A model generated the notes under the pieces. That model saw only the letters and a program-made list of their open reading frames with translations. It made no database searches and was not told where the DNA came from. From the NCBI GenBank assembly GCA_946699065.1, contig CAMPDV010000309.1, positions 1-64,000 of the forward strand: DNA of 64,000 nucleotides. Direction: 5' to 3'. Position numbers and translations under genes: made by a program. Shown here piece by piece: positions 33,767 to 59,591 of the stretch. This stretch comes from Loxodes magnus (lineage: Eukaryota > Ciliophora > Karyorelictea > Loxodida > Loxodidae). Numbering within the stretch: position 1 is the stretch's first letter; each line of letters begins with the position of its first letter.

Positions 33767-35694
33767 TCAGTTCAACTCTTCTGAAACTTCTTCTTCTTCT
33801 TCTTCAATTTTTTATGCTTTTCCTACTTAGCTCTCAATAAGAATTTCTTTTCCTTTTTATTTTTCAAAAGTTTATTATTATTCCATTACTTCTTCTTCTA
33901 TTGAGCTTTCCATTGAGGCTCTTAAATTTTTATTTTAACTTTTTTGAAGTTCTGTTGATTATTATTTAATTTATACTTATAGATTTGAGGATTCCTCAAT
34001 TGATTCATTATAATTAATTTGCTTTAAATTAGTTTGAGTTTCATTCTCGCTTTCATAAGAAGCAATAACTTCATTTTACTCTTCTTCCTTTTCAATGAAA
34101 ATTTCTTCTTTGTCTTATTCTTTTATGTTTGTTTATTCTGATTAAGCTTCTTACTATTTTTGTGTTTTTTACTCATTTTCTTGTTTTTAATCATGTGCCT
34201 TGTTTTCTAAATTTTGCGTATCCTGCTTATTTTCAAATATTTAGGCATTTTATTGATCATCTTCATCATAATCTTATTCTATCTTTCCTTCATTTTTATT
34301 TTGATTTAATTCTTGACTATTTTCATCTTAGACTTAAATTTTATTTTCATGAACTTCATCTTCCTCAAAACTATTTTCGTAATTATCAAAAGAATTTTCA
34401 TAATTGTCTGTTTATTATGCTTCTAATTGCTAATTTTCATCTTCTTCTTAGATCTTTATATGTTTAACCTCTTACTCTTTTGCCTTTTATGGATTGTTAA
34501 CTTTGCTAGGAATAATATTTTTTTATTCATTTTTTGGTTTCTTTTAGGGTTGTGTGTCTTGCTCAAAGCTCATTTCGAAATCTTACGAATAATCTAAATT
34601 TTTGTCATTCATGCTTTATCTTCTTTCACTTTCGTCTTCTTTAGACTCTTCTTGTGATTAAGATTTAATCCTAATTTATCGTAAAGAATTCTAATTTTTT
34701 TAAGATAGTTAAGATTTTGTAATCCTTATTTTTTTTTAATCTTCATTTTGATACTCTTATTTCTAATCAATTGAGTTAAACTAATTTAATTCTCCACTTA
34801 GATTTTATTTATTGAATATTTAAGGAAACTTAGAAGGTTCTTCCTAAATTTAAAACTTACACTGTAATTGAAATGCTTTATAAGTATTTTTCCTGCCTGG
34901 ACATACAATTTATCAGCAAGTTCTTCCATTTTGTTTTCATACATCTTAAGAAATCTTTTTGCTTATTGATTAGTAAGTATGCTAACAATTCTTTTGAAGT
35001 TTGCTACTTGCTAAGCAATGATATGAACTTCTTTATCTTTTTTAAATATTTCTATATTGTAGAAAATATTTCCTATTTGTTTTTTTTACTTAAATAGTGA
35101 AATTTTTTCTTGGTCTATTGAAGGAAGGCAGTTAAAGTCATCTTAAGATGAATAATTTCCTTAGCCATTGATTCCAAACATACTCCAATCTGATTTTGAT
35201 TTGATGTGGAGATTTCTCTTTACTTCGTCTTTTACAGATGTAACTGCAAATTAATAAGGAAACTCACAAATATTATAAAGAATTTTTTCAGCATTTTTCC
35301 TTTCATTTTCTCATAACGTATGTTTTAGTACAGGCTTCTCTTCTTACAATCTTTTTACCATTTATTGATTCTCCAGTGCAATTTTAATTAATTCATTCTT
35401 TCTTTAACCTTTATTCAAACTCTTCTTATTTTCTTCCTAGCGCCTATGTGGACTTTATTATAAAATCGTAGATAATTTTTCGAGCAAAATTTTATTTTCC
35501 CTTTATATTTCTTTCTTTTTTATAGACTATATCTACTCTTTTTTCTTCTTATTCTTTAGGTGATTAAAAGTTGGAGGAGGTGATACATTGATTTAAGGGC
35601 GTATTTTATCAAGATGCTGCAAGTGTAGTTCTTAATCTTTATTAGTTCATTTTTTCTATAATAATCTACTAGAGCAAGGAATGGCTTTATACAT
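33767..35694 (-). CDS. CFAP97/Hemingway-domain protein with acidic Gln-rich tail
   Basis: This encodes 636 residues from ATG 35694 to UGA 33769-33767 once a 17-nt intron (34860-34844) is removed. Residues ~14-75 carry the CFAP97D1/Hemingway pattern: QKKWTNKDQELHLQHLDKI, then INVSPPPTFNHL, then ENKILLEKLSTIL. The Trp in QKKW is a UGA codon. Proteins of this family act in the axoneme and in sperm-tail maintenance in animals, so a ciliary role is expected (inference). The second half is Glu/Gln/Asn-rich and ends in a run of Glu. The CTTCTT runs visible on the plus strand are these Glu codons, not a microsatellite. The plus-strand open frame at 34129-34467 is an antisense shadow. Confidence 0.8.
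34844..34860 (-). other. 17-nt spliceosomal intron
   Basis: On the minus strand this reads GTAAGTTTTAAATTTAG. Without removal the frame from ATG 35694 runs into low-quality sequence; with removal 1911 nt remain, exactly 637 codons ending in UGA. The GTAAGT donor and TTTAG acceptor are canonical. Confidence 0.8.
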
Positions 35695-37604
35695 TTTTAT
35701 TTAAAGTCTTTTTAACTAATTTCTTTAGAAAGAAATATTCACAATTAAGTCATTTCAAATATCAAGTTAAAAACAATAAAATCTTTTTAGTTATTAACTT
35801 GCTACTAAGATTATTCATTCCTAATAAAGGCAACTTTAATTAATATAGTCAGAAGCTGTATTTAGCTTTAATCATTCATCTACCATAAGTAAACTTGAAA
35901 TATTCAATGATAAACAATAAAAAATATAAAGCTTTTAGAAAATAAAAGTGGCTACTCATGTTCTATCATTACAGGTATGTATAATAGCATTTGATAAACT
36001 TATGAAGATAACTTTTATTCTGATCTCAATCTAAAAAATTTTACTGATGTTGATTCTTTAAAATAGATAATTGAAATTATTTCTTTTTTATCGATTTTTG
36101 GTTTTTAGATCTACTTAAATTTTTATTATATTTCTTTTTGACAAATTTTCAACATTAAATGACTAAATAGATAGGTGAGCTTTCTATTTATTAAAAATTG
36201 ATAAGGAAAAGCATTTTATTAGTCTCAGTAGTAGATTCTAGAATCAAATTTAAAAAATGATGGAAATAATTTTTAAATATAAGCTTCATCTATTAGATAA
36301 ATCAGAAATATTTAGAATATTAATTTTAAATCTGAAAGAAAGGGGAACTAATTATCTTATAAGTAAAATAATATTTTATTAATCTTTAAATTTAATAGTT
36401 CTAGAATAAAATATAAAGAATAAATCATTAGAAATTAAATCTGATTTGTAAGTTAATTACTAAGCAAAATTATTATTAAAATTAATTATTAAACTAATAA
36501 ATTGAGATCAGATTATTTGAAAGTTATTTATGCAACCAGTGAGATAAATAAAATTAAAATAAATAAAAATTTATCATTTAAAAATTAAAAAAGTATTAGT
36601 AATAATTTTAGAATCTAAATAGCAGAGTTTGTTTGAAGAATTTAAAGATTTTCCTTTAAAACAAAATAATAAAAAAATTAAAGTAAAAATAGAAATAAGC
36701 ATTTTTATATATTCTAAGTTATTTAATTCTCTATCTTGTAGGTTTTAAGCTTATTTAGCTCAATTAAGCTTTTATCTTTAATTAATTATAATAAAGTTTG
36801 AATATCTATTTATGAAATATAAGCATATTGAACGAAACTTTAATAAATATTTTCAATTTAAATCTTAATTTTATAATATAATTTCTCTATAGTAACTATT
36901 ACTTAATGTATAACTAAGAAACCTAGTAAGTTTTATTATTTATTTAAGCTTCTACTTTCATAAAAAGAAATTATTATTTTAAATAAAATAAAAATAATTT
37001 AAGAGTCTAAAATATTACAATAAAAGATAATCAAATATTTCATTAAATGTAATTTATTATATAAATAGTAATAATCTTAAAAGTGTTCTATAAAAACAAA
37101 ATAGAAGATTATTTGGTTAGAATATAAAAATGAGATTAAAGATAGATAAGCATAATAAATATAAAGTTTAATTAAAACTCTAATTTTAAATGAATAGATC
37201 TTTTAAAATTAATAGTTCATTAGTTAATTAATAACCAAATTATTAACAAAAATCTTAGTAACTTTGAAGTGAAAGAAGATATAGCTTAGGCATGGTTATA
37301 GTTTATATTTTATTTAATACCTTTGTATAAATTATTTAAATAAAAGATTGATTATTTTATACCTGCTCCAATCTCCAAAATTTCTTTAATTTATTACAAT
37401 GTTATTCATTAATTTCTTTAGTAATTGGCTTGATAAATATTAATGACAGAGATTATTATCTATTTTTAGATGGAAGTATTAAGGGAATTAGATATGAAAT
37501 TATAATAGCAAAGTACATATAAGAGCCTTTACTAAGACAATTGCTTAAATTGACTACCCAAATTAAAAATTAGAAGGAAGCATTAAGTAAATCAAATAAA
37601 ATAT
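35695..37604. other. AT-rich intergenic region
   Basis: Upstream of the CFAP97-like gene and downstream of the CDPK-like gene, both on minus. No gene supported. Confidence 0.5.
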
Positions 37605-39398
37605 TCATTTTTTTACATTGTTTGCTTTCGTGTCTTCCGGCGATATTTGCTTTTTAGATCTAAAACTTCGTTTATTCTCAATCTAATCTGTCTCACTAAA
37701 TATTTTCTCAAAAATTTCGCGAGGAATTTTAGATCTCTATTAAGCTTATTGAAGAAACATATTTAAAAAATCATGATAAGAAATGGTTTGCAGCTAGTCA
37801 GCCTCTGCTTCAATTATAAGTTAATTGATAAAAGGCTCAGAATTGTCTTTAAATACATTGAGAACTTAATAAAGTTCTTTTATAGTAACACTTCCTGATT
37901 TATCTTAATCTATTATCTTGAAAATATTATCCAGCTTGTTATATGTTAAAAATTAGCTTGCATCAATAGCAACTGCAATAAATTCTGCGTAATCTATATT
38001 TCCAGATTTGTCTGTATCTAATGAACTAAACAAAACTTTAAGTTACTTTAAGCTCATTGAATTATTTCCGAAAATTTTTTTATATCCCTTGGATAATTCT
38101 TTAAAACAAAGTTTTCCATCACTATTTTCATCTAAACTTATGAAAAGACTATGAAGTTTTTCTTTTTATTCAGGAGTTACTAGTAAATTGCAAATATAGG
38201 ATATCATAACCTTTTAGAGTTTTAATCCTTTAGAATTTTCTTGAGTCTTTTCATCCTTAATCTCCTGCGATATGCCTAAAACTGAATTAAGCATTTTTTA
38301 CGAATGGTAATTGTTTTAAATCCATTTAGAATTTAAAATTTACTCTATAGTAGGTCTTTTTTTAGGATCTAACTTTAGAATGAACTTCATTAAATTAAGT
38401 ACTTCTTTACTAAGGTGCTCTGATTCTTACTTTTAAAATTAAATCTTACTGGAGCATATTTTTTAAATTATTTCAGATGAAGTTGCTCCATTAAACGGTA
38501 AATATCCAAACAGCATCACATACAAAATTATTCCACATGTTCACATATCGCTTTTTTCAGTGAAATTCTTAGTTTTTAAAACTTCTGGAGCTAAGTAGTG
38601 AGGGTTTTGCTATAAAGTAATATCAACAAGAGATTAATATGTTGAGTTGGTACAGTCTAATAATTTAATTGCATTGCATTTATTTTCCTTGAATATAATA
38701 CTTTCAGCTCTAACACACTTGATCAGAATATTCTGCTTATGTAAATATTAGACTACTTATAATAATTGAGTGAAAATTTAAGCTGCATCGAATTCGCTTA
38801 TAAACTCATTCGTTATTATTCTCTCCAATAGGTCACCTCCTCTACATAATTCTTATATTATATAAACCTTTTTATTGGAGCAAAAAAGTTCATAAAAATG
38901 AGGAATATTTGGATGGGAAAGACTCTTTAACATGTTGATTTAATTAACAAAGTCCTATGGATTATAGATTTTATCTTATCTTATTATTTTGGCAGCTCTA
39001 AATTCTTTTGTTTCTATATGATAAGCAATTTTTGTACAACTTCTAATTCCTCTTCCCATAATTTGTCTGATTTAGTAGCATTCACTAATATCTTAATCAC
39101 AAGCAATTTAATTTATTTCTTATAATCATAAGTTATGATAATAACTCACTGACCTAGTGTTGTTATGTCTAAAGCTTGCTCTTGATTAATTAACAAAAGC
39201 ATTATTTTCTCTAGATGGCAGTCTTTTCATGGCCATATCTGATAAACTACTTAGCACTGTATTATATTTAACAGTTAAAAAATCAATATTTTGCCTATCA
39301 GTACTCTCTGTATCTATTGTTTAAATGTCTTTAGATTTTTAGTTGCTTGGCTTAACTCTAAATATATTTCTAAAGGGACATGGAATTTTGCAACCCAT
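37605..39398 (-). CDS. CDPK-like protein with degenerate kinase domain (pseudokinase)
   Basis: An intronless protein of 597 residues. The N-terminus MGCKIPCPF has Gly2 for myristoylation and cysteines for palmitoylation. The kinase domain spans ~108-365: GRGIRS loop, the ATP-site Lys (AAKII, K137), YLAPEVL, and SDMWTCGIILY with Trp as UGA at 38543-38541. Catalytic residues are lost. The HRDLKPEN segment reads IKCVRAES, with Cys228 for the catalytic Asp and Ser for Asn. DFG reads DCT (248-250). The helix-C Glu is Gln153. EF-hands follow: DENSDGKLCFKE (~423), DTDKSGNIDYAE (~459), DQDKSGSVTIKE (~496), and a fourth that lacks ligands. The order is that of a calcium-dependent protein kinase; a calcium-regulated scaffold role is inferred. 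Confidence 0.85.
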
Positions 39399-41063
39399 TA
39401 TAACTAATTTATTCAAATGTTATCAGTAACTAAAAATTCAATAATAATTTCTTAATTCATAAAAATAGGTTAGTTAAATACTTCTTAACTTATTTCTACT
39501 TACTCTATTTTATTTCTTTCTAGTTATTAAATTCTAGTTAAATATCTATCTTCATAAACTCAAACTTATTCATAATAAATTCTTAAATAAACATTCTTTC
39601 AAAGGTTGATTGAATACCTAGAGCATTAGTTCTATTTAATAAAATTGACAAATGTGTTGCTACTGCTTTGTGTGTTAATAGTTAATCGTTAAATTGCAGA
39701 ATATACATGTGATTAATAGTAATCAAATATTAAACCAAATATAATAAAGAATATAACATTTTAAGCTCCAATCTCTTAAATTATCCCACCTTTAATATAG
39801 GACTTTAGTGATAAATATGCTTATTATTAGACTACTTGCATTCAAAGCTAGACTGATAATTCTTATTAAAAGGAACTTTATACAGCTAGTGTAGTATTTA
39901 TTTGAATATCATTAGAATATGAAACTTTTGCATTAGCATTTAATCTAAATAATAGTAACTAATGAGTATTTCATTTATCAAGTATTTTAAAATGGTAACT
40001 TAAATAAATTTAAGAACTATAATATAAACATAATTTAAAGGCTTTATCTAATACTAGCCAGAGAACCCTGATAAGCACTACTAGCTAGGCTACAATAATT
40101 AGCTTATTTGCTAAAACTTTAAGATTTAATTATTTTTATTATATTATAAAAGTGCCCAGATTTTTGATAAATTTGTCTTTAATTTAGTAAATTAGGGAAT
40201 TTAATGCTTGTAATAACTAAATTATTTTTAAAGAAATAAAAATATGTATATGACAATAAGCATAATGAGTTATAAACTCCTCTGATTTATTTATTTTAAT
40301 ACATATGAATTATCAAATCTTATTAATTAATTTCCATTTTATTGCTTAGCGAAATCATAATCCTGTTTTGTATAGTTAAACAAAACGAAATTAATATAAA
40401 TGTTTATCAATCATATACTCATAAATAAAATAAATTGGTTAAAAGTCTTTATAAGTTTAAGTTTTCACTGAAATTAGTAATTTAGAGATAAAATCTAAAT
40501 AATAAATTTAATTCTTCTTAAACAATCTTTATTTTTATTTATAGTATATTCAAATATCACTCATTTACATTGGACCAATATATATTTATATCAATTCATT
40601 CTTCATAAATTATATTAATAACACAATCATTTGGTTTATTCTAACTTTCATTTATATAATCAATAATTTAGATAAATTGACTTGAATTGCTATATATCAT
40701 CAAACTTATTTTAATACCTTTATTATTTTTAGCTTCTCACATATCATTATTAAGTTTTAGAAGCAATAATAATGATTAGATGTTAAGAATATGAATATTA
40801 ACTAAAAATAGAATAAGCACTTTAATAACAAATATTTCTCTTTCTTCCTTTTTATTTGATAACTAAATGAGAGATTAGGTAAAGAGTATTTAATTTATGT
40901 TTAGCTGATCAAATAAATAACTCTTTCAATTTTAAAACTCTTAATGTTTATCAGTCAGTTTTTTCTACTATATTAAAAAAATTTCCTTATATTAAATAAG
41001 CTTTCTAAATAAGAGATGAAAGTTAAAGTATTCGAAATACAAAGTTCCCATATATAAATTAAA
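39399..41063. other. AT-rich intergenic region (divergent promoters)
   Basis: Lies between the CDPK-like gene (minus) and a kelch-type gene (plus), so it should hold two divergent promoters. No gene or defined motif was recognised. Confidence 0.45.
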
Positions 41064-42044
41064 ATGGGAAATAAGGCATATTAAAAAGATAGTATAATGA
41101 AAGTGAGAGATAATTTAAGCATAAAGATATTGTTTTTAAGGAAAAGCATAAGAAGAACTTAATAATTTAGAAAAAATAGAATATTTGGCTTGCTAGGTAT
41201 AGGAATAGTTAAATATGAAATATGCTAAAATTTTAAAGGAGTTCCTAAGTTCAGAAAAATCTCAACAATTAATTAAAATTAAAGAACTTACTTGTCATAT
41301 TTAATAGCTCCTAATAAATTTGAATGCTGTTAATTGAAAATTAAAAAAACTAAAGGATATTGCACTTAAATCGAATAGCTGTACGAAGATATATTAGTTG
41401 TTTCAGGTGGTCTTTCATCTTAATAGAGGCTATTCTAAATAATTAAAGAAAAATAAAAAATGCTAGAGTTACAAATGAAGTTTTAAAGATTTTGACATAG
41501 AACTAGTTTTAATAAGAGAGATATAATATTTATAATTTCAGGATAAGCTGATAAAGGTTAGTAATTTGTAGATACAAAAGAGTGTGAAATGTTCAGATTG
41601 AGTAATAATGAGTTTTCTATTATTAGATAAATTTTATCCCCAGTAAGCTTTTTTGGATGTTCTTAACAAGATTCGAAACTTTGGGTGTTTGGAGGATATA
41701 GTTCTGAGTTAGATATTTTTTAAAACTTGATTTAAGAATTTGACTTTAAAACAAATAATTGAATTTATAACTAGAAAATTCTATTATAGAAAGGCACACT
41801 ATCATCGGTATCAATTCCTTAACAAAACTGCATTTTAATTTATAGAAACGGATGATATGAATCAAATAATTAAATATTTGACTTAAAGAACATAGTTAGC
41901 TAAAATTAGATATTTCCTTCTGAATAATTTAATTCCACACAGCCTATTGAATCTGGATACAAAGTTTACTAGTTTGAGATTTCTAATAATCTGTTTATTT
42001 TTGATTTAAAGAAATAAAAGTGGCAAGAGATACTTAAGCAATGA
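41064..42044 (+). CDS. Coiled-coil plus kelch-type propeller protein
   Basis: The C-terminal two-thirds (frame ending at UGA 42042-42044) has kelch-like strands: VSGGLSSQQRL, DIIFIISGQADKG, KLWVFGGYSSEL, CILIYRNGWYESNN and NLFIFDLKKQKW. The N-terminal part is a coiled coil (QEELNNLEKIEYLACQ) in another frame. Removing GTACGAAGATATATTAG at 41381-41397 (17 nt) joins the two as KSN-SFVSGG. The start is less certain: ATG 41064 (MGNKAYQKD) fits if a 28-nt GTATAA...TTTAAG segment at 41092-41119 is also removed, giving 311 residues. Reading the terminal UGA as Trp would extend the protein to about 42188. Probably a protein-interaction propeller. Confidence 0.6.
41381..41397 (+). other. 17-nt intron
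   Basis: GTACGAAGATATATTAG. Its removal connects the coiled-coil frame to the kelch frame; retention leaves the two in different frames. It shares the GTA start, TTAG end and length with the intron at 34844. Confidence 0.7.
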
Positions 42045-42744
42045 GACTAAAGCTTAAAAGATAAATTTTATTAATTTTTAACTCAATTAGTTTGCTTAAA
42101 CTTTTATAAATTATTAAATCAAGTAAGTAGACACAATCTAAATAAGTAAATTAATTTAAATATACAAGTGATTTAATTATCAAATTGATAACTAAGCTAT
42201 TATTAATTAAATCTACTCTCTAATATCTTTATTTAAACAATAATTCCACTATATAATTAAATTGCTCTTTTGTATAAATAATATTTTAATGATAATTGTA
42301 TAAAGTATATAAGTGCTAAAATTGTATAAAAATAGAGTAGAATATGAATTTAACTAATTATAAATACTACTAAACTTAAAAATGTATATAGTTTAAACAA
42401 AATAGAAGCTTATTACATACAAAGCAGCTTATTATAAAATGTTTATCAATATTGCTCCATTATTTCTTTATATGCATTCAAATTTGTTATATCAACAACT
42501 CCTTTTTCTCTTTAAGCAGATTTATTTAAAATTTATCTCACTTCAAATATAATTAAATGAACTTAAAACTTAAATATTTTTAGGGATAGATTCTCTAGGA
42601 ATTAATTTTAAAAAATTTGAATAAAAGAAATGAAGAAATTAGTAGTTGCTTGGTTTATCAATAATTAAAGAAATTTATAAATTAAAATAAATTTATAGAA
42701 AGCTAATTCTTTACTTTATAAGCAAATTCATTTAGAAATAATAA
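42045..42744. other. AT-rich intergenic region
   Basis: No gene supported between the kelch-type gene and the tRNA-like sequence. Confidence 0.5.
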
Positions 42745-42811
42745 GACAGTGTGGCCGAGTGGTCTAAGGCGCTAGTCTTTCGGGGCGTGGGTTCAAATCC
42801 CACCGCTGTCA
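42745..42811 (+). pseudogene. tRNA-Leu-like sequence lacking the anticodon arm
   Basis: A 67-nt tRNA body. The acceptor GACAGTG pairs with CGCTGTC plus discriminator A. The D arm is GCCGAGTGGTCTAAGGC, and the T arm GTGGG-TTCAAAT-CCCAC is perfect. Between the D and T arms only about 16 nt remain (GCTAGTCTTTCGGGGC), too few for an anticodon stem-loop plus the long variable arm of a class II tRNA. The residue looks like one strand of an anticodon stem (CTAGT) fused to a variable arm (CTTTCGGGG). A deletion between CTAGT direct repeats of the two stem strands, about 13 nt, would produce it; that is inference. Internal A and B boxes are intact, so transcription is possible. Confidence 0.75.
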
Positions 42812-43690
42812 TTTTAATCTTCAATACTTTAGTATTTAATTAATAAATCCTTTATCAATAATATATTCAATTTCTAAAAATTTTTAACTAAATTATATAA
42901 GATATGTATAATTAAGTTCCAACATACCTTAGTAAAAGTTGATGAATTGTGGATATTTTTTTGTCTTTGTTTAAGAATGATATCAAAATGGATTTATTAT
43001 AATATAAGGCGAATATTCACCATCCAATTATTTTATGAGAAATATTTACCAAAATATTTTATTTTCAATCATTTGAATTTGAAAGCTAAAATTAAAATCT
43101 ATAAATGTTTTAAATGAAAATATCCTTATTCTTCTTTAGAAAATTTGCTTAAAAATAAGGTAATTTAGTTTGCATATTGCTACATAATTTAAATTATTAT
43201 CTGCTTTAATTAAAAAAAGTCTAAAATTAATTAATTTTGTCTCTTTACAAACTAAAATATGTCTTTTTATATAAGTTTTATCCTAAATAATGTTAAATTT
43301 TTAATTATTTAAGATATATTAATATTTAAATTTAATCATAATAAAAGGAAAAATTCAACCTTCATATTATTTTTTTACTGTGCTCTAAACATTTGATCTA
43401 TATGAATATTATCGTAAAAAGTTAAAAATTAAAAGAATATTAGTTAAATGATATAATTTAAATTATATAAATTTTAAGCTAGTTAGAAGTTAATTTTAAA
43501 CTAAATAAAGTTATGCTATAAGTATAACACTTTTAATTAATATATTATGCCCTTTTATTGAGTATCAATTAGCTTTATAGTCAAACTTTATATTGTATCG
43601 TTAAAATGTAATACTTTGTAATATGATAATTAAGGATTTAGAATGCTTTAATTATTATATAATAAAAGATATATAAGCAACAATATAAAA
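42812..43690. other. AT-rich spacer between two tRNA loci
   Basis: No gene supported. The sequence directly after the tRNA-like locus is ATTTTAATCTTC, with one short T run that could end polymerase III transcription. Confidence 0.45.
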
Positions 43691-43763
43691 TGCCGAAACC
43701 CGGGATTGAACCGGGGACCTTTAGATCTTCAGTCTAACGCTCTCCCAACTGAGCTATTTCGGC
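43691..43763 (-). tRNA. tRNA-Phe(GAA)
   Basis: A 73-nt cloverleaf on the minus strand. The acceptor GCCGAAA pairs with TTTCGGC, and the discriminator is A. The D arm is GCTC-AGTTGGGA-GAGC. The anticodon arm TTAGA-CTGAAGA-TCTAA carries GAA. The T arm is CCCGG-TTCAATC-CCGGG. No intron. All stems pair fully and invariant A/B-box bases are present. It decodes UUU/UUC as Phe. Confidence 0.97.
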
Positions 43764-48092: not shown

Positions 48093-50390
48093 TCAACTTT
48101 TATTTTAGGCTTTCCTAATGAACATATCTATTTTAACTTAATTGGGATCTGAATCTTTTTTTCTCCTTTAAGCTGGCTTGTTATTATGTAAAACTCCTTT
48201 TCTCTTTATTCCTTTACGCTTTTACTTTTTGTTAAATAATTTTTAAGCAGAAAAATTTTTTAATCTATTTAGTTCACATTCTTTATAATGCTTTTCAATC
48301 CCTAACTTTGTCATTTCTGAACTGAATTAACAAAATTCGCAAATAAAATTGATACTGTTTAATGTTGCATTTCCTATTTGATTTTGTTCTTAGATTTATT
48401 CTTAAATAGTTGTTTATTGCTCTTAGTTTTAATTAGCAGCAATTTCATTCGAACTTTGATCGTCATATTCGAAATCGAATAGCTCAGCTAATAACTCTTC
48501 TGTAGTTAGATTTTAATTAGTATTAATATTAATAATTTCCATAAAATTAGCGTCATTTTTATCCAAATTCATCTCTTATGGTCTAGGATCCTATTGAAAA
48601 TTATTATTATCTTAATCTTCTTAAGGTATACAAGACTCTTATTTTGCAGCTATTTCTTATAAAGACTCTTTTTTCATTTGAAAATACTTTTGTATGCTTT
48701 TCTAAGCAAACATAATTTATGGCTTATTTTTTTGTTTGTTTTTTGCCAAAACAACTCCTTTTTATCTTTGCTCATAACAGCTTTTTTCATGGTCTAATAT
48801 TCCAACTTTTGTAAGCTTTTGTTCAAATTTGCAGTAGCTACATTTGAAATCAGTTAATTAAGGAAGCATGCTTTCCAGGGGTACAATTTTAAGAGGCTTA
48901 AGTAATTTATTTTCCTCTTATTAATCATACTTAATTTTATTAATATTTTCAGTAAAGCCTTTTTAATTCTCCAACTCTAACATGCTCGTATCCATTTTTA
49001 TTTATTATTCATTCTATACTTCATTTTCTATTTGCATTTAATCTATTTCGACTGATTTATCATAGTTTCTAAAATAATTTGTAATAAGAGAATGCTTCTT
49101 AGGTGGGTCCATTAAATGTCCAATAGCAACGCAAAGATATCTTACTGGATCCATTGGTTCTAACGCTCTTAATAGTTTAAAAGCGCTTTAAGTAAGAAAG
49201 TCCAAATCACCTCCCAAAGGAGTTGAGAAAGTAGCAATTTTTTCTTTAGTTTCGAATTTAAAAGTTTTTGCAGAGACTGATAAACTTAAGCCTACTTTAT
49301 TTAATTAGCCTATTTATTCTGCTAGCATTTCACATAGCCAACTCAAAACATGCTTTCTTTCTTCGTAGTTAAAAGCTAAACCAAATGTTCTTCCAACACT
49401 TATTGATTTTCTCTCCATAGGATCACTATGAGTCAAAGCACCAATACCAAAGCAAGAATCCAGAATAAAACGGATTTCCCTATCGTGCTTAAATGCTAAT
49501 TTAATGGCTAAAGGATTTTTTTGTACATCTTCACATGTAAAAAATCCTAGTTTATTAAGCTAAATCTCTGTAGATTCTCCAATAAAAGGTACTTTTCTCA
49601 AGTTTAGTTTAGCAATAAACTACATTATTTTATCTCTATCACTTTCTAGCTTAAATTAATCATTTGGCTTTTTGATATCTGTACATATCTTAGCTAGCAT
49701 TTTATTGCATGAGATACCTGCTGAACATGTTAAATTAGTAGCTTCAAATATTTATTTTCTTATTTCCCTAGCAGTAGATTCTGGAGTAAAGTCTGGATTA
49801 TTCTATAAAAACTTAGTGACTTCTAAATAGCCTTCGTCCAATCCGTAAGATTCAAAATTAGCATCGAATTTTTTGAAAATTTATCTGATTTACTTTGCTA
49901 TTTCAGTGTATTTTCTCATATTTGGTTCTATTAATTTTAAATCTTTACATAGATGTAGAGCTACGAAACCAGGCTAAGCACTTCTAATACCAAATTTTCT
50001 TGCAATATAGTTAGAGGTAGCAATTACACCGTTAGCTGAACCTATTGCAATGGGTTAATTAGCAAGTTTAGGATTGTCCCTAATCTCAACAGCAGCATAG
50101 AACATATCCATATCTACATGAATCCATATTTTGTCTAATTTTCTATCTTCTTCTAGCTATTTAAAAAAATTTTCAGTTCATATTTCAGCTTACTTAACTA
50201 CATATTCATTTTATAAATTAGCTTCATATCTAACTTTGTTTTTTTCAGCTTTTTTATCTTACTTTAATTTCTTTTATAGTTGCCATTAATAATATCAGGT
50301 ATCTTTAGTAACCTCAAGTATTTTGGCATTTATAGCTTCTCTATCAATATCTTACATTCCTGCCTTTTCAACCACAAAATTGATCTACAT
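48093..50390 (-). CDS. POLK: DNA polymerase kappa (Y-family translesion polymerase)
   Basis: The frame encodes 765 residues from ATG 50390 to UGA 48095-48093. The N-clasp motif EKAGMQDIDREAINAKI matches the KAGM...DKEKIN element of pol kappa. The catalytic motifs HVDMDMFYAAVE, SNYIARKFGIRSAQPGF and SYGLDEGYLE are intact. A helix-hairpin-helix region (LRKVPFIGESTEIQLNKLGF) and the little-finger domain follow. The C-terminal part has two ubiquitin-binding zinc fingers, CSYCKFEQ...HEKSC and CEFCQFSS...HYKEC. PIP-like boxes QKSIQKYF and, at the end, QVKIDMFI would bind PCNA. Coding appearance continues upstream to about 50470, and an upstream exon from ATG 50539 joined over a 20-nt GTATTAATTCGTTGGCTTAG is possible. 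Role: error-prone bypass of minor-groove lesions. Confidence 0.92.
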
Positions 50391-50982
50391 CTTCAAGGTT
50401 TATAAGTTTTCTTCTTATTTAATTGAATTTAATTTTTAGAATTCGTTAAATTTTTTAATTCCTTTATTTGTTTCTAAACTAAGCCAACGAATTAATACCC
50501 TTTAGTTTATTTAAAGCTAATTTAACACTACTGATTCATATAATAAGTATATATTTAAAATTTCTTTTAAAACTCTTTAAAATCAAATATTACATTCATA
50601 AATTAAATAGATTTGCTTATTTTCATATCAATGTCTCTTTTATTTCCTTTGACTTTAAATAAAAGCCAAATGGATGTAAGGCTCAGTGTGATAATATTTA
50701 TAGTAATGATATATAAGCAGAGACTTAGTAAGACCCAATACTGTTAATTAGGTATATTCTCAAATGATTTAAATAGAGATTTAATTTGAATAATATTTAA
50801 ATTCTTAAATATTTATTAAGATGTCATATATTTAACACTATTGAATACTTGCTTCGATTCTCATTTCTGCTTCGCTGTTTTTAGATTAAGCAACTTAGTA
50901 TTATTGATATTTAATTTGGTTTGTGCCTATTCCTTCGCTAATAGCTGATATTTTATAAAAGTTAGGAAAGCTTAATAATATA
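50391..50982. promoter_or_regulatory. Divergent intergenic region between POLK and ICMT genes
   Basis: About 590 bp between divergently transcribed genes; the promoters of both must lie here. The part nearest POLK may include a short first exon (50539 to about 50495). No TATA-like or other motif can be singled out in such AT-rich DNA. Confidence 0.35.
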
Positions 50983-51676
50983 ATGCAAAGTTTCTTAATC
51001 AATATTCAATTAGTTGAGCTTTCATTGTTTACAGGATTGAATGGAAAAATAGTATGAAGGGATTGAAATTCTCCAGATAGAATAATATCATTTCAAATAT
51101 TTCTATTCTTCATTTGCACTTATCATTTATCTGAATTTTTATGTGCATCCTTCTATAGACCTTTAGAAGTTACAATTGATAGTAAGATATTTTATTGTAG
51201 GCTTTTTAATCAAATATAACAAGGGATATTGAATGGCTCAGATAGGATGCTACTTAGAATTCTTCGTAGTCTATTACTTTGCTTTTCAAAGCTTTAATTT
51301 TATTTATCGCTTGTTATTTGTAGTGGGAGGAATAATTTTTATATTTGGATAGATTACAAGAGTTTTAGCCTTAATCACTGCTGGGCAACATTTTTCACAC
51401 TAGATCAAACTAATGCATGATAAATCTCATAAGCTTGTAAAAAATGGAGTTTACGCTTTGTGTAGACATCCTTCTTATGCCGGATGATTTTGATGGGCAA
51501 TTGGCACTTAAATTTTTCTTGGAAATAGTATAAACGCTATAACTTATACGATAGTGTCATGGAAATTCTTTAGAGGAAGAATTGCTTATGAAGAATAAAC
51601 TTTAATAAACTTTTACGAGGAAGAATATATTACATATCGAAATTAGACGAAGACATGGATTCCCTATATTAAATGA
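50983..51676 (+). CDS. ICMT: Isoprenylcysteine carboxyl methyltransferase
   Basis: The gene has two exons, 50983-51181 and 51201-51676, giving 224 residues, close to yeast Ste14. Exon 1 ends in TYHLSEFLCASFYRPLEVTID and exon 2 opens SFLIKYNKGYW, matching the family's YHVSEFL...SxDSFLLNHSxEY. The methyl-donor and substrate core follows: SHKLVKNGVYALCRHPSYAG, then WFWWAIGTQIFLGN, then a Glu-rich EEYITYRN near the end. In PSYAGWFWW, two of the three Trp are UGA (51485-51487 and 51491-51493). The terminal UGA falls at the usual ICMT end (WIPYIK-stop). Several hydrophobic membrane segments fit an ER enzyme that methylates prenylated CAAX cysteines. Confidence 0.93.
51182..51200 (+). other. 19-nt intron in the ICMT gene
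   Basis: GTAAGATATTTTATTGTAG. Splicing joins codon A|GC as Ser in TID-SFLI, exactly where ICMT proteins have the conserved DSFLLNH motif. Without splicing the frame is lost. This is the best homology-backed intron in the window. Confidence 0.9.
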
Positions 51677-52982
51677 AAAATCAAACCAAAACATTTACTC
51701 TTTCATTTTAACTCTCTATTAATGCATATGAACTAATACCTTTATAATCAAATAAACAATTAAATTTAAGAAAACTTTTTCTCTATTTTATTACAATTGG
51801 TTTTTAATTGGTTTTGGCGCCCTTTGTTAAAATTCAAAAGAATTAAAAAAGGCTATAATATCTAGCAATAAAATGAATTGATATGATATAATAAAGATAA
51901 TTATGTTTTGCTATTTATATACAACCCATCTAATTAAACTTTTTCAGCACTAATACTCTAAAAGGTTTATCTCTAGGTTCATATATCGCTATATGTACTT
52001 TATTTGGAGTATTTATAAACTAAAAATAATCTAATAAGAATTTTTTAATTTACTTTAATTATAAAGCATTACTAGTTTCTATGTACTACTCATAGTAACT
52101 TGTCTGGGATGATTGATTATTCTAAGATTACTTGACTAAAACTTAAAACTAAAACTAGCATTTACTCATATTTAAAGACTGAATAGTCCTTATTATTTTA
52201 AAGATACATCTTTAAAGCTAAATAAAGTTTCTATATCTATTAATTTTATATTTAATAAAGTATCTTAATCCAATACTTCTAAGAGATTACTCTAATTTTG
52301 TTACTTTAAACAATCAATATCCTTTATATCCCTTTATAAATATAGCTTCTTCTGTTCTAAAATATTCTTCTAAGATATAATAAATTAAAAGCTCGTAAGA
52401 GTAAAGAATAATAATGTATAGGACTTACAGTTAACTATCTTTAGAATTTATTTATAAATACTTTTATAGGTTTTCATCAATTACCGCTTCTTTCTTTCGA
52501 GGAATTGAATTAGATTTAAGATTCATTTTAGCTATAGTTCCTAATACTAGGGATAGAAGAAAGTACACTTTGAAAATGCTTTCTAAGCAATATCTAAGAT
52601 TCCAGCTACTTCTTGTCTAAGATTCTATATTATCATAAATTTGACTTTCAGATATGAGCTTTAATTATCTACTTTATAGCATTGAAATTTAAAAGAGCTA
52701 ATAGCTAAAAAAGTATAAGAATAAGGCAAAGTATAGAAGCATATAGGAGATATAACTATCTATCTATAAAAATAGGAAATTGTATATAAATGCTTAGACC
52801 ATTCTATTTATTAATGCAGCTAACTACAAATTTGTAGCTAAATTTAATTTTAATAACTTTTGAACACAAACATTGAAATAATTTATAAAAAGAGTTTGAT
52901 TGAAAAATAAAGAATTATATGAAATTCAAAGGAGTAGATAAATGGTTTAAAAGTATTAGTTTAGTTTAAATAATCAATAAAG
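51677..52982. other. AT-rich intergenic region
   Basis: No gene supported between the ICMT and RCC1 genes. Confidence 0.5.
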
Positions 52983-54764
52983 ATGTCGAAAGCTGGATAT
53001 GGTGAAGATAAAGTAATTTTTGTTATATTTAGTCCACTTCCTCATTTTATAAATCTACTGAATTATAAGGTATCAAAGAGCAATCAAGCAGCCAATTGAA
53101 AGAAATATCTAATGAGATTATTAAGATCATTTCTACATAATCAGTGACTTTAGCTCTAACTTCAGCTGGCTAAGTATATTCTTGGGGTAGTATTTCTCTT
53201 TCATTAGGAAGAAGATTAGCTAAGAGAGAAGATTCGAGAGTACCGATGCTTATTACGGAATTACGTGATATCAATATAACAGACATATGTAGTGGCAGAG
53301 ATCACGTATTGGCTTTAGATTAAGATAAATTTGTTTGGGCTTGGGGTAGTAATTGTAATGGATAGCTTGGCATAGATTCTACAGAGGATTAGAATTTACC
53401 ATAGAGAATTGATTAAGTAACTAATGTAGATAAAATCTGGGCGGGCTAAGATAATTCTTTTGCTCTGACAAAATTAAGTTTCTATACCTGGGGAAGCAAT
53501 AGAGGAGGAATTTTAACTCCATATAACAAAGAAAATGAAAAGCTAAACGATATACTAAAAGTGCCGACTCAATTTGTAAGCACACCTTGGAAATAAGCTT
53601 AAGTCGGAGCGAACGTTTTGAATGTAATAGCGCGTCCTGGAGAAATAATTTGATAAATAGCACTAGGTTCTTCAGAAGGAGTTTCTACTATAGAATTAAG
53701 AGATTTAAAATCTCAAATTGCAAAGCTTTAAGCTGATAATGACAGGCTTATAAGAGAAAGAAATCAATATAAAGAGTAACTCATCTCTGGAGGAAAATCT
53801 TTTTCTTAGTCTAATAAAATTCTAGCTAAAAGATTTTCTGAAGATGATACTATTCAACGCTTGGAAAATCTAAAAAATGAGGCAGAAGAATCTAGACGTC
53901 GAATTAATGATATGAAGTAAAATGAAAAGAGTAAGCTTAAATAAGTTGATTTTGATGTCTCAAATTATTAGCTTTAAGAAAAAGACCTTCTTGTAAGAGA
54001 CAAAGAAATTTGGTAGTCAATAGAAGAAATCGAAAATTAAATTAAGAAGTGCTAAAGAGAAAATTAAGACTTCTAATAACTTGAAATTGAAAAGAAAAAT
54101 AAGAGAGAATTGGCAGCTGCTAACGAAAGCATTAAGAGTTAGATGTACAAAAAGTAAACTGACAAAGAAAACGAAAGATTACATCTTTAAATGAAGTTCA
54201 ATAAGTTAAAAGAGTAATCTAAAGACTATAAAACCAAAATTGATATGTTCGAAAAACTTATTCGAGTTTAAAAAGAATCTTTAGCTAGGGAATATTTCCA
54301 GTTTCATAGCAGTGATATCTAAAGTGATATTTAGCAAATCTTTTATTATTTCAATAACCTTTAATTCACAAAAGCACATCAACTTAGTAAAAACGTTCAA
54401 TGCTCAGGCATGTAAGATTTACTGAAGCTAAGCAACAAATTTTTAAAGTAAAAATTTAAATTTTTATAGATAAATCTAAAATGAAGCTCATAAGCACAAG
54501 TTGAGTAAAGATAGTGTTGCATATGAGACCTTTTCTAAGATTTGGGCAATGTTTGATGATAACGTTGAGCTCAGGCTATACATTAATGACTTGCTAGAAG
54601 GAATAATGCAACAAACTTCCAAAAGATTAGAAGAAATCTATTAGCAAACTCAGGATCTTATATATAAGAAAGAAGACGTAGTTAACAAGGAAGAAAAGTA
54701 CGAAGCAGAGGAATTTTTGAGGAAGAAAATAAACCAAATAAAAAACAAAGAGGAAATTGATTGA
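52983..54764 (+). CDS. RCC1-repeat protein with long coiled coil
   Basis: Three exons (52983-53012, 53033-54447, 54470-54764) give 579 residues ending at UGA 54762-54764. Exon 1 encodes MSKAGYGEDK. RCC1 repeats are seen at GQVYSWGS, then CSGRDHVLALD with FVWAWGSNCNGQLG, then IWAGQDNSFALT with FYTWGSNRGG. Only about three blades are recognisable. From about residue 225 the protein is a long coiled coil (LRDLKSQIAKLQADNDRL) to the end. No membrane or signal segment. RCC1 blades here most likely mediate protein binding rather than Ran exchange. The fit of both introns to a single 580-codon frame supports the model. Confidence 0.85.
53013..53032 (+). other. 20-nt intron in the RCC1 gene
   Basis: GTAATTTTTGTTATATTTAG. 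Its removal joins MSKAGYGEDK to the frame STSSFYKSTEL that leads into the RCC1 repeats. Confidence 0.75.
54448..54469 (+). other. 22-nt intron in the RCC1 gene
   Basis: Starts GTAAAAATTT and ends TTTTTATAG. Removal fuses the coiled-coil frame ...LSNKFLK to QIQNEAHKHKLS; retention breaks the frame and ruins the C-terminus. Confidence 0.8.
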
Positions 54765-55236
54765 TTTTAATTATTTAGCTATATCTTATATAATAATATT
54801 TAAATTAAAATAAGCACAGCTCTTTCTACATCCATTACAAATAAAAAAATAAATACTCTAAACATACTAAGCCAAGTATCAATCTAAATAACTAACAATT
54901 CATATATATCAACTACAATAAATACTAAATTGCTAAATAAATTAAATAATATTGTTTAAAGAGTGACATGTAATGTATAAAGAAAAGGTTATTTGCTAAA
55001 ATCAAGAAATCGAAAATGTATTAAAAATAAAATAAATCCAGATAAAATTTTATTTATCCACTATTACAGTATCTTAAAAATAATTAGTTATACTAAATTA
55101 AATAAATTTTATTCTATTTAATTAGCTTTATTTTTTTATTTTAATTAAGGAAAAATTCATAATTAAAATTGATCTAATTCGCAATCATTTTAAATAAGTT
55201 TCTATTTAAGAAAATAAAATAATAAAATTTTAATAA
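54765..55236. other. AT-rich spacer
   Basis: No gene supported. Confidence 0.5.
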
Positions 55237-55926
55237 ATGGAGTCGCAAAAAATAGAGAAACAGAATTATTACCTCTAGAGCTATCTTAATGGTATAAAGT
55301 TTACAGCAAAGAGCTATGGTATATTCTTAGATTATAAATAAAAAAAAGTTATTTTTGCTTATTTAAATAATAATGAAATGCCACATAAATTAAATTGCTT
55401 TTTATTCCATAATGATATAATAAGAGTTTGAGTTTTCTAATATGTAAAGTTCTTATAAATTAATAAGATAATAATTAAATATAAATAACTAAATAATTAT
55501 TTAAATTACTAGATATATCTTTAAAGAGTTAAAAGGAATAATAGATAATTATATTAAACTTAAGTATTGTAACTAAAATAGATTTAAGAGTCAAATGTAG
55601 AACTAATTTAAAATAAAGGTTATAATTGAAATATTATAAATAGTAAATAGACAATTATTAAAATAAATTTAAGATATTATAATAGTTAAGTTATGTTTCT
55701 CAATGAAAGTAATTGTAAAGAGAGTCAACTTTATTCTTTTATAACTTTCAAAAAGCTACCTTGTTTATAAAATTATTAGTTAAATAATAAAAGGTGGCTT
55801 AAGAGTTACATAATAAAAAACTCATATAAAACAGACAAAAATGACAATGCAAAAATAGACTAAAAATATGAAAAAAAAATTTTTTGTTATATTTTTTCTT
55901 TAATTTTTTCAAAGATAATTAAATGA
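55237..55926 (+). CDS. Hypothetical protein, 229 residues
   Basis: One frame from ATG 55237 (MESQKIEKQNYYLQSYLNGI) to UGA 55924-55926. The composition is Asn/Lys/Gln/Tyr-rich, with a hydrophobic C-terminal stretch (IFCYIFSLIFSKIIK). A better-formed patch, NESNCKESQLYSFITFKKL, lies near residues 152-170. There is no recognised domain. Because this code has few stops, a 230-codon frame in AT-rich DNA could be fortuitous; the uninterrupted ATG-to-UGA layout between two real genes is the only support. Confidence 0.35.
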
Positions 55927-57437
55927 AAAATATACTTCTGATTATCTTAAGGAACTATAATTTTATAAATATTTGGCTATAATTAAATTATTAAGGAAAA
56001 AAGGATATAACTTTATCTTATCTTTTATTAATACAAATGAATTTAATTTATTTGATAATAATTATGATTTAAAGTAAAACTTATAAAAGTATTTAGTTTG
56101 CATAGATCAAATTTAAAAATTAAAAATCAACTAATTTAGTAAATAAATATGTTTGATCTATAAATGTAATATTATGCAATTAATTTTCCTTTATTAATTT
56201 GATATGAGATATTTTTATTAAATCCTAGTTGATTGCTTGGAAAACTTATTCTATAATTAAGGAATATTTTTTTATTATTTCCATATTCTTTCATTTTCAG
56301 TTAATTAATTAGGAAGATATAAAATGTAAAAGTTAGAAATTGATTAAAGCTATATAGCATTTATTTAATAATATTTGGTAAATTAATTTGTCTAGCTTCT
56401 TAAAGTTCTTAATTTATTAAACTTATGGATTTTCTGATTATGTTTGTATTAAATTATACAGATAACAATTGATGTTTATTTAGATTTTTTTAATTACTAT
56501 TTTTAATTAAATTTAATATAGCTCTGTAGAACTCTTCCTTTTGATTTATAGTTTTTAACTATTTATATTATTATTTTATATAATTTCTAGGTTTTTAAAT
56601 TTTAAAATGCTTAATAATAATCATGATATTTATAAATTATAACCTAAAGGATATTAAGTTAGGTATTAAATGAAGAATAAAAGCAAAAAATTTAATTAAC
56701 TAGCAATTCTTTATTTTACGCTGCTAGAGATAAAATTACTGAGTTATTATATTTAAAAAAGGAAAATAGGTGGTATTTGTTTATTAGCCTTTGTAAATTT
56801 TAAATTACAAAATGCCTGCAAACTTTTCTTTTTATTTTCTAAAGGGCATTGATTTATTTGGCATATTAGATATATTTGGTTATAAACAATAGTTAATGAG
56901 ACTTAAGTAAAGATACAAAACTATTTAATTAATAATTTCTAAACTAATCTTTGAAGATTCATGAAGATATGATTATTGAGACTTCGTTTTAAACTTGTTT
57001 TTCTTAATATCTCAGTTTGAGATATCAGCAGTTAAAATAAATATATTAAGCAAAACTTAGAAAATGCCACTTTTTATTTTCAGTGTCTTTATGCTATTAT
57101 TTTTTTAATTTTTATAATGAGTATACTTTATAGAAAGATACTTAGCATTATAAGCAACGCAAAAAAGCAAGTAGAAGCAGCGTAAATTAAATAAATTGAT
57201 TGTAAGATAAAAATGATTTTCTAGGTTTGATAATTATTCTAATTACTTTCATAATATTTAGAACTAGCATTGAAGCACCTAAAAGGCTATTTAATTGAGT
57301 TAAAAAGGAGATGATATAATTATCAATTAGTTATGGAATGTATCCTATAATTATAGATAAGATTATTAATAAATTAGATTCAATACATGATTTATACTTG
57401 CTAATGAAGCTTTCCATTTACTTGGATTATAAAAAAT
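55927..57437. other. AT-rich intergenic region
   Basis: No gene supported with confidence. The last ~300 bp before the histidine kinase start have somewhat more complex sequence and could hold an upstream exon. Confidence 0.4.
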
Positions 57438-59591
57438 ATGAAAGGTATGAAAAAAAGCTATTAAGAATTTCTATAAAAGAGGTCGCTTAAATTTATGCAA
57501 ATTTTAGCCCCTCTATGCAATATCTTAACTTTAGTTGGATTGATTTACTCAATTTTTAACTTGGAATAAAAAGGAATTATTAGTTCAGTTATAAGATAAG
57601 TCTTCTTTGGTTTGGTGTGAATTGTCTCTTACAAGTACAAATAGTTGATAAAGCCACTTTCTATCATACTTTTGCTTATAATCTATATATAGGGATTCAT
57701 TATATCAGCTGAGCATCCTAATTATTCCGTAATTGGAATTTTGTATTTTTCTGTATTAGCTACAGTATGGGGAAACAACACAGTTAGGAATTTCTACTTT
57801 TAGATGATTATTCATGTAGTATTTTATAACATTTGGATCTATACCGTTTACAAGCTTAACTATTTCAGCCTTATTGATAAAAGCATCTGGATTCCTAAAA
57901 TAATTGCTATTTTTATTTCCAGCTTAACTATATACACTACTGAGCAAGAAAACATAAAGCTATTTAAGAAAAGCGTCAAAAACAAATAGCAGAAGTTAAG
58001 ATGGTAGTTTATCACAGATAAAACTCCAAGTGGAATTATAATCATAAACCAAAACGAAGTCATTTATTAGAACTATCTGATCAAGTAGCTCATATAAAAC
58101 AAGGATTTCTTTAGGATTATTAGCTAAGCATAATACTATGAATAAAACAATGAAAGCGAAGAATTTATGATTGATTTGATGAACTACGTAGAAAAAAAAA
58201 GCTAAGAAATAAAAGATTTTGGACTTATTCAGTTGAGTATTAGCAATAATATCCATATATTTTAGTTGCAAGGCTTTAATATAGTAATGGAATAAAATTC
58301 ATGCACTATTTTAAATTTTGTTGATTTCACTAAGGTTATAAAACTAGAAAGAGAAATTTAGGAAAATAAGTATAAGACACTGTACATGAGATCTTTTTCG
58401 CATGAAATAAGACATCCTGTGACACATATATTTTCACTTACCAATCTTATTGAGAAAAGCTGCATGAATGTGGAAAATAATTAAGAGATATTATAAAAAG
58501 TTAGATTAATATAAAATGAACTGAAGTGTCTTTTAAATCTGTAGAACTAAATGTAGGATCTTAGTGATATCTAAAATTAGCAATTAGTATTGAAAGAAAC
58601 TAAATTCGATCTAATAGACTTAGTCCAAGAAAGTACGGATATAATAAAAGATCAATCTTAAAGAAGAAAATTAGATTTGATCACTGTTATTCATTCTAAA
58701 GTTCCACAATTTTTGATTTCTGACAAAAAGAGAATTCTGCAAATTCTAATTAATTTACTCTTAAATGCTTTCAAATATACAAAAGCAGGATTCATAAAAC
58801 TTGAAATTTTCAGTAAAGAACATTTAGTGAAATTTATGGTAGAAGACAGTGGTACAGGAATTAAAGAATAAAAACTGAATTAGATTAAGTAAATGCTTGA
58901 AAATTAATAGAACATTTAGTTCGATATTAATAAACCTTAAGGTATAGGGTTGACTCTTTATTTATGCTACTAAATTTCAAAGAAATTAAGTGAAAATTGT
59001 TTAAAAATTAAGTCAAGAGAGGGTGAAGGAACAAAAATTTCATTTTACATAAATTAGCAATAAAGTTTGAGGGAACTAAGTATTTTCGAAAAATCAATTT
59101 GTATTGATGACTATTCTTCTTGATAAAATGTTATTTAAAATGAAATAAAGGTTCCTATTTAAAGCTTTAAATCCATAAAAGACATAACTTTAGACTGCTT
59201 CTGCTCAAAAGTGCTGCTTGTTGATGATACTGAAATGATAAGATATGTTTTACAAACTGTACTTAAGAAATTTAGACCAGAAGAAGCATTGAATGGATAG
59301 TAGGGAATTGATAAAGTAAAAGCCAAAATGTAAAGTGATTGCTGCAAAGAGTATAAAGCTATTATAATGGATTGCGAAATGCCTATTCTTAATGGATGAG
59401 AAGCTACTAAATAGATTAGAGAATTGGGATATAAAGGATTAATAATTGGTTATACCGCTTATACTTCTTAGTAGGATTACCAAACATGTATTTCTGTTGG
59501 AATGGATGAAGTACTTACAAAGCCATCTGCTTTTGAGATAATACTCGAAACTATAGAAAACTTGATAAAATCAAGGAATAAGGATCTTTGA
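57438..59591 (+). CDS. Membrane hybrid histidine kinase with receiver domain
   Basis: About 717 residues from ATG 57438 (other in-frame starts at 57447 and 57495) to UGA 59589-59591. Residues ~20-190 hold about six membrane helices (ILAPLCNILTLVGLIYSIF, MIIHVVFYNIWIYTVY). A PAS-like linker follows. The dimerisation box is FSHEIRHPVTHI with His322. The ATPase has the N box INLLLNAFKYTKAG (Asn443), the G1 box VEDSGTGIKE and the G2 box GIGLTLYLC. The receiver domain starts VLLVDDTEMIRYVL, has the phospho-acceptor IIMDCEMP (Asp645), NGWEATKQIRE with Trp as UGA at 59397-59399, and the TKPS Lys. All catalytic residues are present, so a functional phosphorelay sensor is expected. Its ligand is unknown. 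Confidence 0.9.

Follow-up and report, generated by a model that had tools for sequence, protein, structure and literature searches.

Codon alignments, coding ends, tRNA genes and eRF1 in Loxodes magnus are consistent with the karyorelict genetic code

A 64,000-nucleotide stretch of DNA from the ciliate Loxodes magnus (positions 1 to 64,000 of contig CAMPDV010000309.1, here contig C309 and referred to throughout as the window) was analyzed for the meaning of the codons UAA, UAG and UGA. The window is almost certainly nuclear DNA of this karyorelict, read with the karyorelict code (NCBI table 27): UAA and UAG specify Gln, and UGA specifies either Trp or stop. A sequence-only reading of positions 33767-59591 had previously proposed this code from UGA codons at conserved Trp positions and at gene ends. 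The UGA codons that it named were confirmed to be present and in frame, and its interpretation was supported by an alignment of kinase domains from across the genome, which gave UAA and UAG as Gln and UGA as Trp. Genome searches were run on an assembly of 705,730,643 bases in 7,843 contigs. The source of the window is very likely the macronuclear assembly of L. magnus; the published macronuclear and micronuclear assemblies are 706 Mbp and 848 Mbp, respectively (PMC11441545).

The code itself is already known and has been published for L. magnus; the sequence-only reading was right about biology that was not new. As reported in PMC11441545, the code of L. magnus is table 27; UGA is its sole stop codon and also encodes Trp wherever the distance to the poly(A) tail is sufficient. 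The assignments reached here are the same as those of table 27 (Loxodes magnus and Parduczia), and no code difference was found.

Codon meanings and coding ends

The codon assignments were derived from an alignment of 69 kinase domains, consisting of the calcium-dependent protein kinase (CDPK) of the window and 68 further domains encoded in this genome, which belonged to the 75 best among 136 scored. All three codons were written as X, the domains were aligned, and the amino acid at each X was scored from the ordinary codons of the other domains in that column. UGA was scored best as Trp (log-likelihood 233.6, with Phe next at 51.1; 79 cells), UAA as Gln (138.7, with Lys next at 39.6; 355 cells) and UAG likewise as Gln (74.2, with Lys next at 16.8; 163 cells). 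The top Trp column of the alignment held 27 UGA, 32 UGG, 7 Phe and 3 Tyr among 69 residues, the second held 20 UGA and 13 UGG among 41 residues, and the third 10 UGA and 26 UGG among 47. Together these three columns, made mainly of UGA and UGG, contained 57 of the 83 kinase UGA codons. When 13 control codons were scored in the same way, the true amino acid ranked highest for eight of them (GAA, TTT, CTT, AGA, TCA, GGA, TAT and TGT). As judged by sequence comparison, the kinase alignment decides UAA = Gln, UAG = Gln and UGA = Trp.

The window alone was set aside as proof of the code because it offered too few conserved positions, and the paralogous kinases of the genome were used instead. When window proteins were tabulated against solved structures (22 alignment blocks, including four of the five CDPK alignments), the outcome for UGA was mixed, with Trp opposite in 5 of 12 cells, compared with 12 of 19 for UGG and with the clear preference for Trp in the kinase set. 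Gln stood opposite UAA in 3 of 81 cells and opposite UAG in 4 of 32. In the same blocks CAA and CAG, which ordinarily encode Gln, faced Gln in 5 of 22 and 0 of 7 cells, respectively. Taken by itself, the window suggests that UGA is Trp and falls short of proving that UAA and UAG are Gln. The earlier claim that UAA and UAG fill Gln-like positions throughout was thus unproven by the window and was borne out by the genome-wide kinase alignment.

The individual Trp positions that had been named fared unevenly. The UGA of the kinase motif SDMWTCGII (38543-38541, minus strand) was matched by Trp in all five displayed solved-structure alignments. In the motif HPSYAGWFWW of isoprenylcysteine carboxyl methyltransferase (ICMT), the UGA at 51485 faced Trp in two beetle ICMT chains and Leu in an archaeal chain, but the templates have Tyr, Tyr and Leu at 51491, and this second W is not a conserved Trp among them. 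The kelch strands LQWSKI (UGA at 31162) and FSHWEKI (UGA at 31597) both lie outside the interval 33767-59591 to which they had been credited. Compared by eye, the former faced Trp in both displayed stretches covering the site (7kzm and 8uxs), and the latter faced Trp in 9mey and 9tp5, whereas two 7kzm stretches placed Thr and Asn there. The CFAP97 UGA (35313-35311, minus strand) was opposite Trp in two of the four displayed chains and opposite Ser in the other two; the motif QKKW by which it had been described differs from the window at this site, which reads HTL-UGA-EN.

The positions at which genes end were examined with a coding model blind to UAA, UAG and UGA, which gave a clear end at 28 of the 68 kinase loci. 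In 18 of these 28, a UGA stood no more than 10 codons from the modelled end, as compared with 2/24, 5/25, 3/25, 5/27, 6/28, 8/28 and 6/28 at seven shifted positions. No clear rise was seen for UAA (16/28, against 13-16 of 24-27 at four upstream offsets) or for UAG (11/28, against 6-10 of 24-27 at the same offsets). UGA was the sole codon of the three to rise at these modelled ends, showing a tendency of coding regions to terminate at UGA. The earlier claim that genes close at a final UGA therefore holds, as kinase coding ends are rich in UGA and the C-termini of ICMT and eRF1 are also followed by UGA.

Final UGA codons in the window were placed at 31987 (kelch-repeat gene), 33769-33767 (CFAP97 region), 37607-37605 (CDPK), 48095-48093 (DNA polymerase kappa, Pol kappa), 51674 (ICMT), 54762 (RCC1-repeat gene, after a predicted intron) and 59589 (histidine kinase). 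G+C content dropped past the final UGA in all six cases tested (kelch, CFAP97 region, CDPK, Pol kappa, ICMT and histidine kinase). These ends had been chosen by seeking a UGA where the coding signal fades and are therefore not an independent test. The best window case for a terminal UGA is ICMT, in which homology reaches the last codon: the alignment to 5vg9 extends to residue 277/288, and the sequence IPYIK is directly followed by UGA 51674, downstream of the sense UGAs at 51485 and 51491. The distance from the last sense UGA to the stop was 61 codons in ICMT, 64 in the histidine kinase, 130 in the kelch gene, 312 in CDPK and 695 in Pol kappa. In published L. magnus transcripts, UGA and UAA are depleted over roughly the 20 codons that precede the stop, and the 3′ untranslated region has a median length of 41 bp (PMC11441545). 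These transcript data, which come from the literature and reach beyond the present sequence data, support the proposal that nearness to the 3′ end decides the meaning of UGA.

Transfer RNA genes, eRF1 and a model of decoding

Transfer RNA (tRNA) genes with the anticodons UUA (L090) and CUA (L091, L092) were recognized as tRNAs by both ARAGORN and Rfam, with ARAGORN labelling them Stop and Pyl. They resemble the Gln YUG genes and therefore probably carry Gln. The loop pattern of the UUA/CUA tRNAs was found at 285 places in the genome, against 40 for a reversed control.

Candidate genes for a tRNA-Trp able to read UGA, one of the checks that followed from the sequence-only reading, were found in the form of short-stem tRNA-Trp(CCA) genes. 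The tRNA-Trp CCA-loop pattern occurred at 128 places in the genome (13 for the control), and the exact 22-base core of the short-stem gene at 124 (none for the control). One hundred of the 124 core places were listed in detail, and 99 of those 100 lay in two tandem arrays, represented by loci L074, L075 and L076. The array on C67 (482313-491183) contained 48 listed copies, all with A27-C43, in a unit of about 188 bases; on C148 (155454 onward), 52 listed copies carried U27-C43, of which 51 formed one array with a unit of about 241 bases. In all five short-stem copies obtained in full, the top pair of the anticodon stem (27-43) was broken, leaving four pairs and a CCA anticodon. The 3′ half of a tRNA-Trp of the type with a five-base-pair anticodon stem was found at three places, all on C110, and the two copies examined (L072, L073) had five-base-pair stems and a T stem that was bulged or mismatched. 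tRNA-Trp genes with a different body may have escaped these patterns.

It is possible, and is put forward here tentatively, that nearly the whole nuclear tRNA-Trp pool is of the UGA-reading short-stem type, located mainly in the two arrays with A27-C43 and U27-C43. If so, a single kind of tRNA would serve UGG and UGA everywhere, eRF1 and the 3′-end side alone would decide between stop and sense, and gene dosage would set the balance. Tandem families are general: the tRNA-Phe pattern was found at 242 places (27 for the control) and the Gln YUG pattern at 234 (9 for the control), both with arrays, and tRNA-Lys also occurs in large tandem families. Therefore no Trp-specific amplification is claimed, and amplification special to tRNA-Trp was ruled out by the Phe, Gln and Lys arrays.

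A short-stem tRNA-Trp in Loxodes is already in print and is credited to Swart and colleagues (PMC13092985, PMC12005148). The same sources describe a broken top anticodon-stem pair, as found here, in the tRNA-Trp(CCA) of Blastocrithidia, Condylostoma, Blepharisma, Loxodes and Amoebophrya. The present genes differ from those in that the core is present at 124 places, largely in tandem, and the broken pair takes two different forms, A-C and U-C. No account of the anatomy of the tRNA-Trp arrays in Loxodes was found in the literature searched, although Swart et al. 2024 (eLife), Seah et al. 2022 and Kachale et al. 2023 may describe it; the word 'tRNA' is absent from the main text of PMC11441545. 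The array anatomy is a modest addition to a known system.

A dispersed repeat with an end resembling a tRNA T arm and the sequence CTTCAGA was observed on C921, C444, C558, C561, C594 and C1144. The CTTCAGA repeat was considered as a UCA tRNA and rejected, as its three fetched copies (L086-L088) were not called tRNAs.

Two eRF1 genes (L070 and L071) were located 35 kilobases apart on C196, with 416 of 435 residues identical. The first match obtained, L069, is presumably Pelota and was set aside. Relative to human eRF1, L070 carried E55A, T58R, S60Q, L124F and Y125F among other changes and retained NIKS; L071 was the same as L070 at sites 55, 58, 60, 124 and 125. The eRF1 changes for which a check had been proposed were thus present in both genes, including E55A and Y125F. 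Each gene has a UGA after the family-expected C-terminus. Past this stop UGA, additional in-frame UGA codons were seen within five codons, two in L070 and one in L071.

The UGA-selective eRF1 of ciliates that read UAA and UAG as Gln is likewise changed beside NIKS and in YxCxxxF, including E55 and Y125. The Loxodes proteins carry the combination E55A, T58R, S60Q, L124F and Y125F, which was set against human eRF1 only. Activities of human eRF1 mutants on UAA/UAG/UGA, listed as a private communication in table 1 of PMC4698671, are 75/35/80% for E55Q and 100/34/100% for Y125F. These values fit weakened UAG recognition and retained UGA recognition in the Loxodes eRF1.

The decoding machinery, namely the UUA and CUA tRNAs, the short-stem tRNA-Trp and the altered eRF1, fits the code. 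In the proposed model, tRNAs with UUA and CUA anticodons would insert Gln at UAA and UAG, on which eRF1 would act little, and the short-stem tRNA-Trp(CCA) would read UGA besides UGG. By default this tRNA would outcompete eRF1, and internal UGA codons would be translated; eRF1 would win at UGA only near the poly(A) tail, with the aid of the poly(A)-binding protein and a very short 3′ untranslated region. Competition between eRF1 and tRNA near the poly(A) tail is the model presented for Condylostoma and Parduczia in PMC4967479. Condylostoma magnum (table 28) resembles the present system in translating all three codons and in its context-dependent termination, and UGA is read there by a short-stem tRNA-Trp(CCA), as it would be here (PMC4967479, PMC13092985). 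It differs in that all three codons also terminate there (PMC4967479), whereas in the genome of the window only UGA rises at coding ends. That a single codon can carry two meanings within a transcriptome illustrates how genetic codes can change without a lethal step.

Contrary evidence and alternative readings

Several observations weigh against the assignment of table 27. In the window, Arg stood opposite the Pol kappa UGA at 50297, Gln opposite that at 50180, Ile opposite the UGA at 59397 in the histidine kinase and Thr opposite an ICMT UGA at 51230, possibly 5′ of the start; non-Trp residues also faced ICMT 51491 in all templates and ICMT 51485, kelch 31597 and CFAP97 35313 in some. In the kinase test, five of the 13 control codons failed to place their own amino acid first. 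For AAA, Arg ranked above Lys in second place, and for ATT, Val ranked above Ile in second place; Lys came first for both CAA and CAG, and Phe for TGG. TGG, CAA and CAG were at a disadvantage, since excluding a codon's own occurrences removes every Trp codon in the case of TGG and all but one Gln codon in the case of CAA or CAG. The results for AAA and ATT mean that the test is inexact between similar residues.

The coding ends and eRF1 provided further points of this kind. No clear coding end was obtained at 40 of the 68 kinase loci, and 10 of the 28 clear ends were without UGA inside 10 codons, perhaps owing to introns or noise, or perhaps to another stop. No depletion of sense UGA before the stop was seen at the 18 assigned ends, where the last 20 codons held 2 UGA in 352 codons (0/180 in the last ten and 2/172 in the preceding ten), close to the expectation from 83/17,675 across the kinase domains; these stop assignments are uncertain by up to 10 codons, and some ends with two nearby UGAs are possibly misassigned. 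UAA accounted for 11 of these same 352 codons, compared with 48 of the 911 codons that lay 41-100 positions further upstream of the stop. Finally, the human Y125F and E55Q mutants keep UAA termination (100% and 75%), and such changes alone therefore fail to explain the loss of termination at UAA.

The ten coding ends that lack a nearby UGA would also be expected if some genes ended at UAA or UAG as well as UGA, as under a Condylostoma-like code (table 28). A small minority of karyorelict transcripts may, as Seah et al. reportedly described in 2022, stop at UAA. Against this code, UAA and UAG showed no clear rise at the kinase coding ends, and UGA stands at the expected C-terminus in both eRF1 genes and in ICMT; we regard it as very unlikely. 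A code in which UGA is only a stop, with genes containing internal UGA being pseudogenes or UGA specifying selenocysteine, would accommodate the UGAs at non-Trp positions, but it is contradicted by the kinase codon scores, by the 57 of 83 UGA codons in the three columns shared with UGG and by kinase profile matches that are full-length or nearly so, and is scarcely credible.

The tRNA-Trp genes found were mostly short-stem (124 places against 3), as might be expected if UGA were plain Trp and another signal ended genes, as in a Blepharisma- or mitochondria-like code. This is extremely unlikely, given that UGA alone rises at coding ends and that ICMT and eRF1 have a UGA just where their C-termini are expected. 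The remaining alternative retains the code and changes its reader: UGA would be read by a tRNA-Trp(UCA), nuclear, edited or imported from mitochondria, in place of the short-stem CCA tRNA. A tRNA-Trp(UCA) is encoded by ciliate mitochondria (PMC4967479). A UCA-loop pattern was at control level, however (15 places, with 13 in the reversed control), and of the 15 places four were fetched, none of which was called a tRNA; a pattern specific to the tRNA body and open to CCA or UCA gave three places, all CCA. No tRNA-Trp(UCA) was detected with the patterns tried, and other tRNA bodies, introns or mitochondrial contigs could still hide one. Reading of UGA by such a tRNA is judged unlikely, and the short-stem tRNA-Trp(CCA) is the preferred reader of UGA under table 27.

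Gene content of the window

Pfam profiles placed kelch repeats in two parts of the window and also identified CFAP97, CDPK, Pol kappa, ICMT, RCC1 and a hybrid histidine kinase that carries a receiver. The kelch-repeat gene occupies 29665..31989 on the plus strand (PF24681, 2.2e-53), with in-frame UGA at 30655, 30694, 30835, 30841, 31009, 31162, 31201 and 31597; its start is not fixed and introns are possible. On the minus strand, an open frame at 33767..34906, supported by the coding model and its translation and without a Pfam match, ends at UGA 33769-33767 and may encode the C-terminus of CFAP97, continued in another frame past a putative junction. The CFAP97/Hemingway domain itself (35625-35344; PF13879, 2.8e-20), together with the sense UGA at 35313-35311, spans 35311..35625 on the same strand. 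CDPK, comprising a kinase domain and EF hands (37605..39398, minus strand; PF00069, 5.3e-50, plus EF hands), has sense UGA at 39128-39126 and 38543-38541 and a predicted start at MGCK. A second kelch-like coding stretch lies at 41187..42044 (plus strand; UGA at 41493, 41760, 41853 and 42042), its frame and end being provisional.

Pol kappa (48093..50486, minus strand) was identified by PF00817 (1.1e-46) and alignment to 4u6p, with an approximate start; its UGAs at 50297-50295 and 50180-50178 are at unconserved positions. ICMT follows at 50834..51676 on the plus strand (PF04140, 4.9e-27; start not fixed). The RCC1-repeat gene with a coiled coil (52931..54764, plus strand; PF00415/PF25390) has sense UGA at 53003 and 53651. 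Its unspliced frame contains six UGAs from 54482 to 54587, and cutting the 22-nucleotide GT-AG stretch 54448-54469 produced one open frame to UGA 54762 with two sense UGAs; we infer an intron there. This intron was picked by eye, and automatic scoring, with the end assumed at 54758, preferred others and listed 54448-54469 only in a two-intron model. The mean intron length in L. magnus is 19.3 bp (PMC11441545). The hybrid histidine kinase with a response regulator (57621..59591, plus strand; PF02518 and PF00072) has UGA at 59121 and 59397, and its HisKA match was under the Pfam cut-off for that domain.

Two tRNA-related features complete the map. A sequence resembling tRNA-Ser, a label that is our assumption, was observed at 42745-42811 on the plus strand (Rfam tRNA, 46.3 bits). 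It has acceptor, D and T arms and just 15 bases in place of the anticodon arm and variable region, was given no call by ARAGORN, and is probably a deletion pseudogene. A tRNA-Phe(GAA) gene at 43691..43763 (minus strand; tRNA calls) is a member of a large genomic family, the same family whose tRNA-Phe(GAA) copies at C22:46472-52892 stand in tandem and repeat about every 376 bases.

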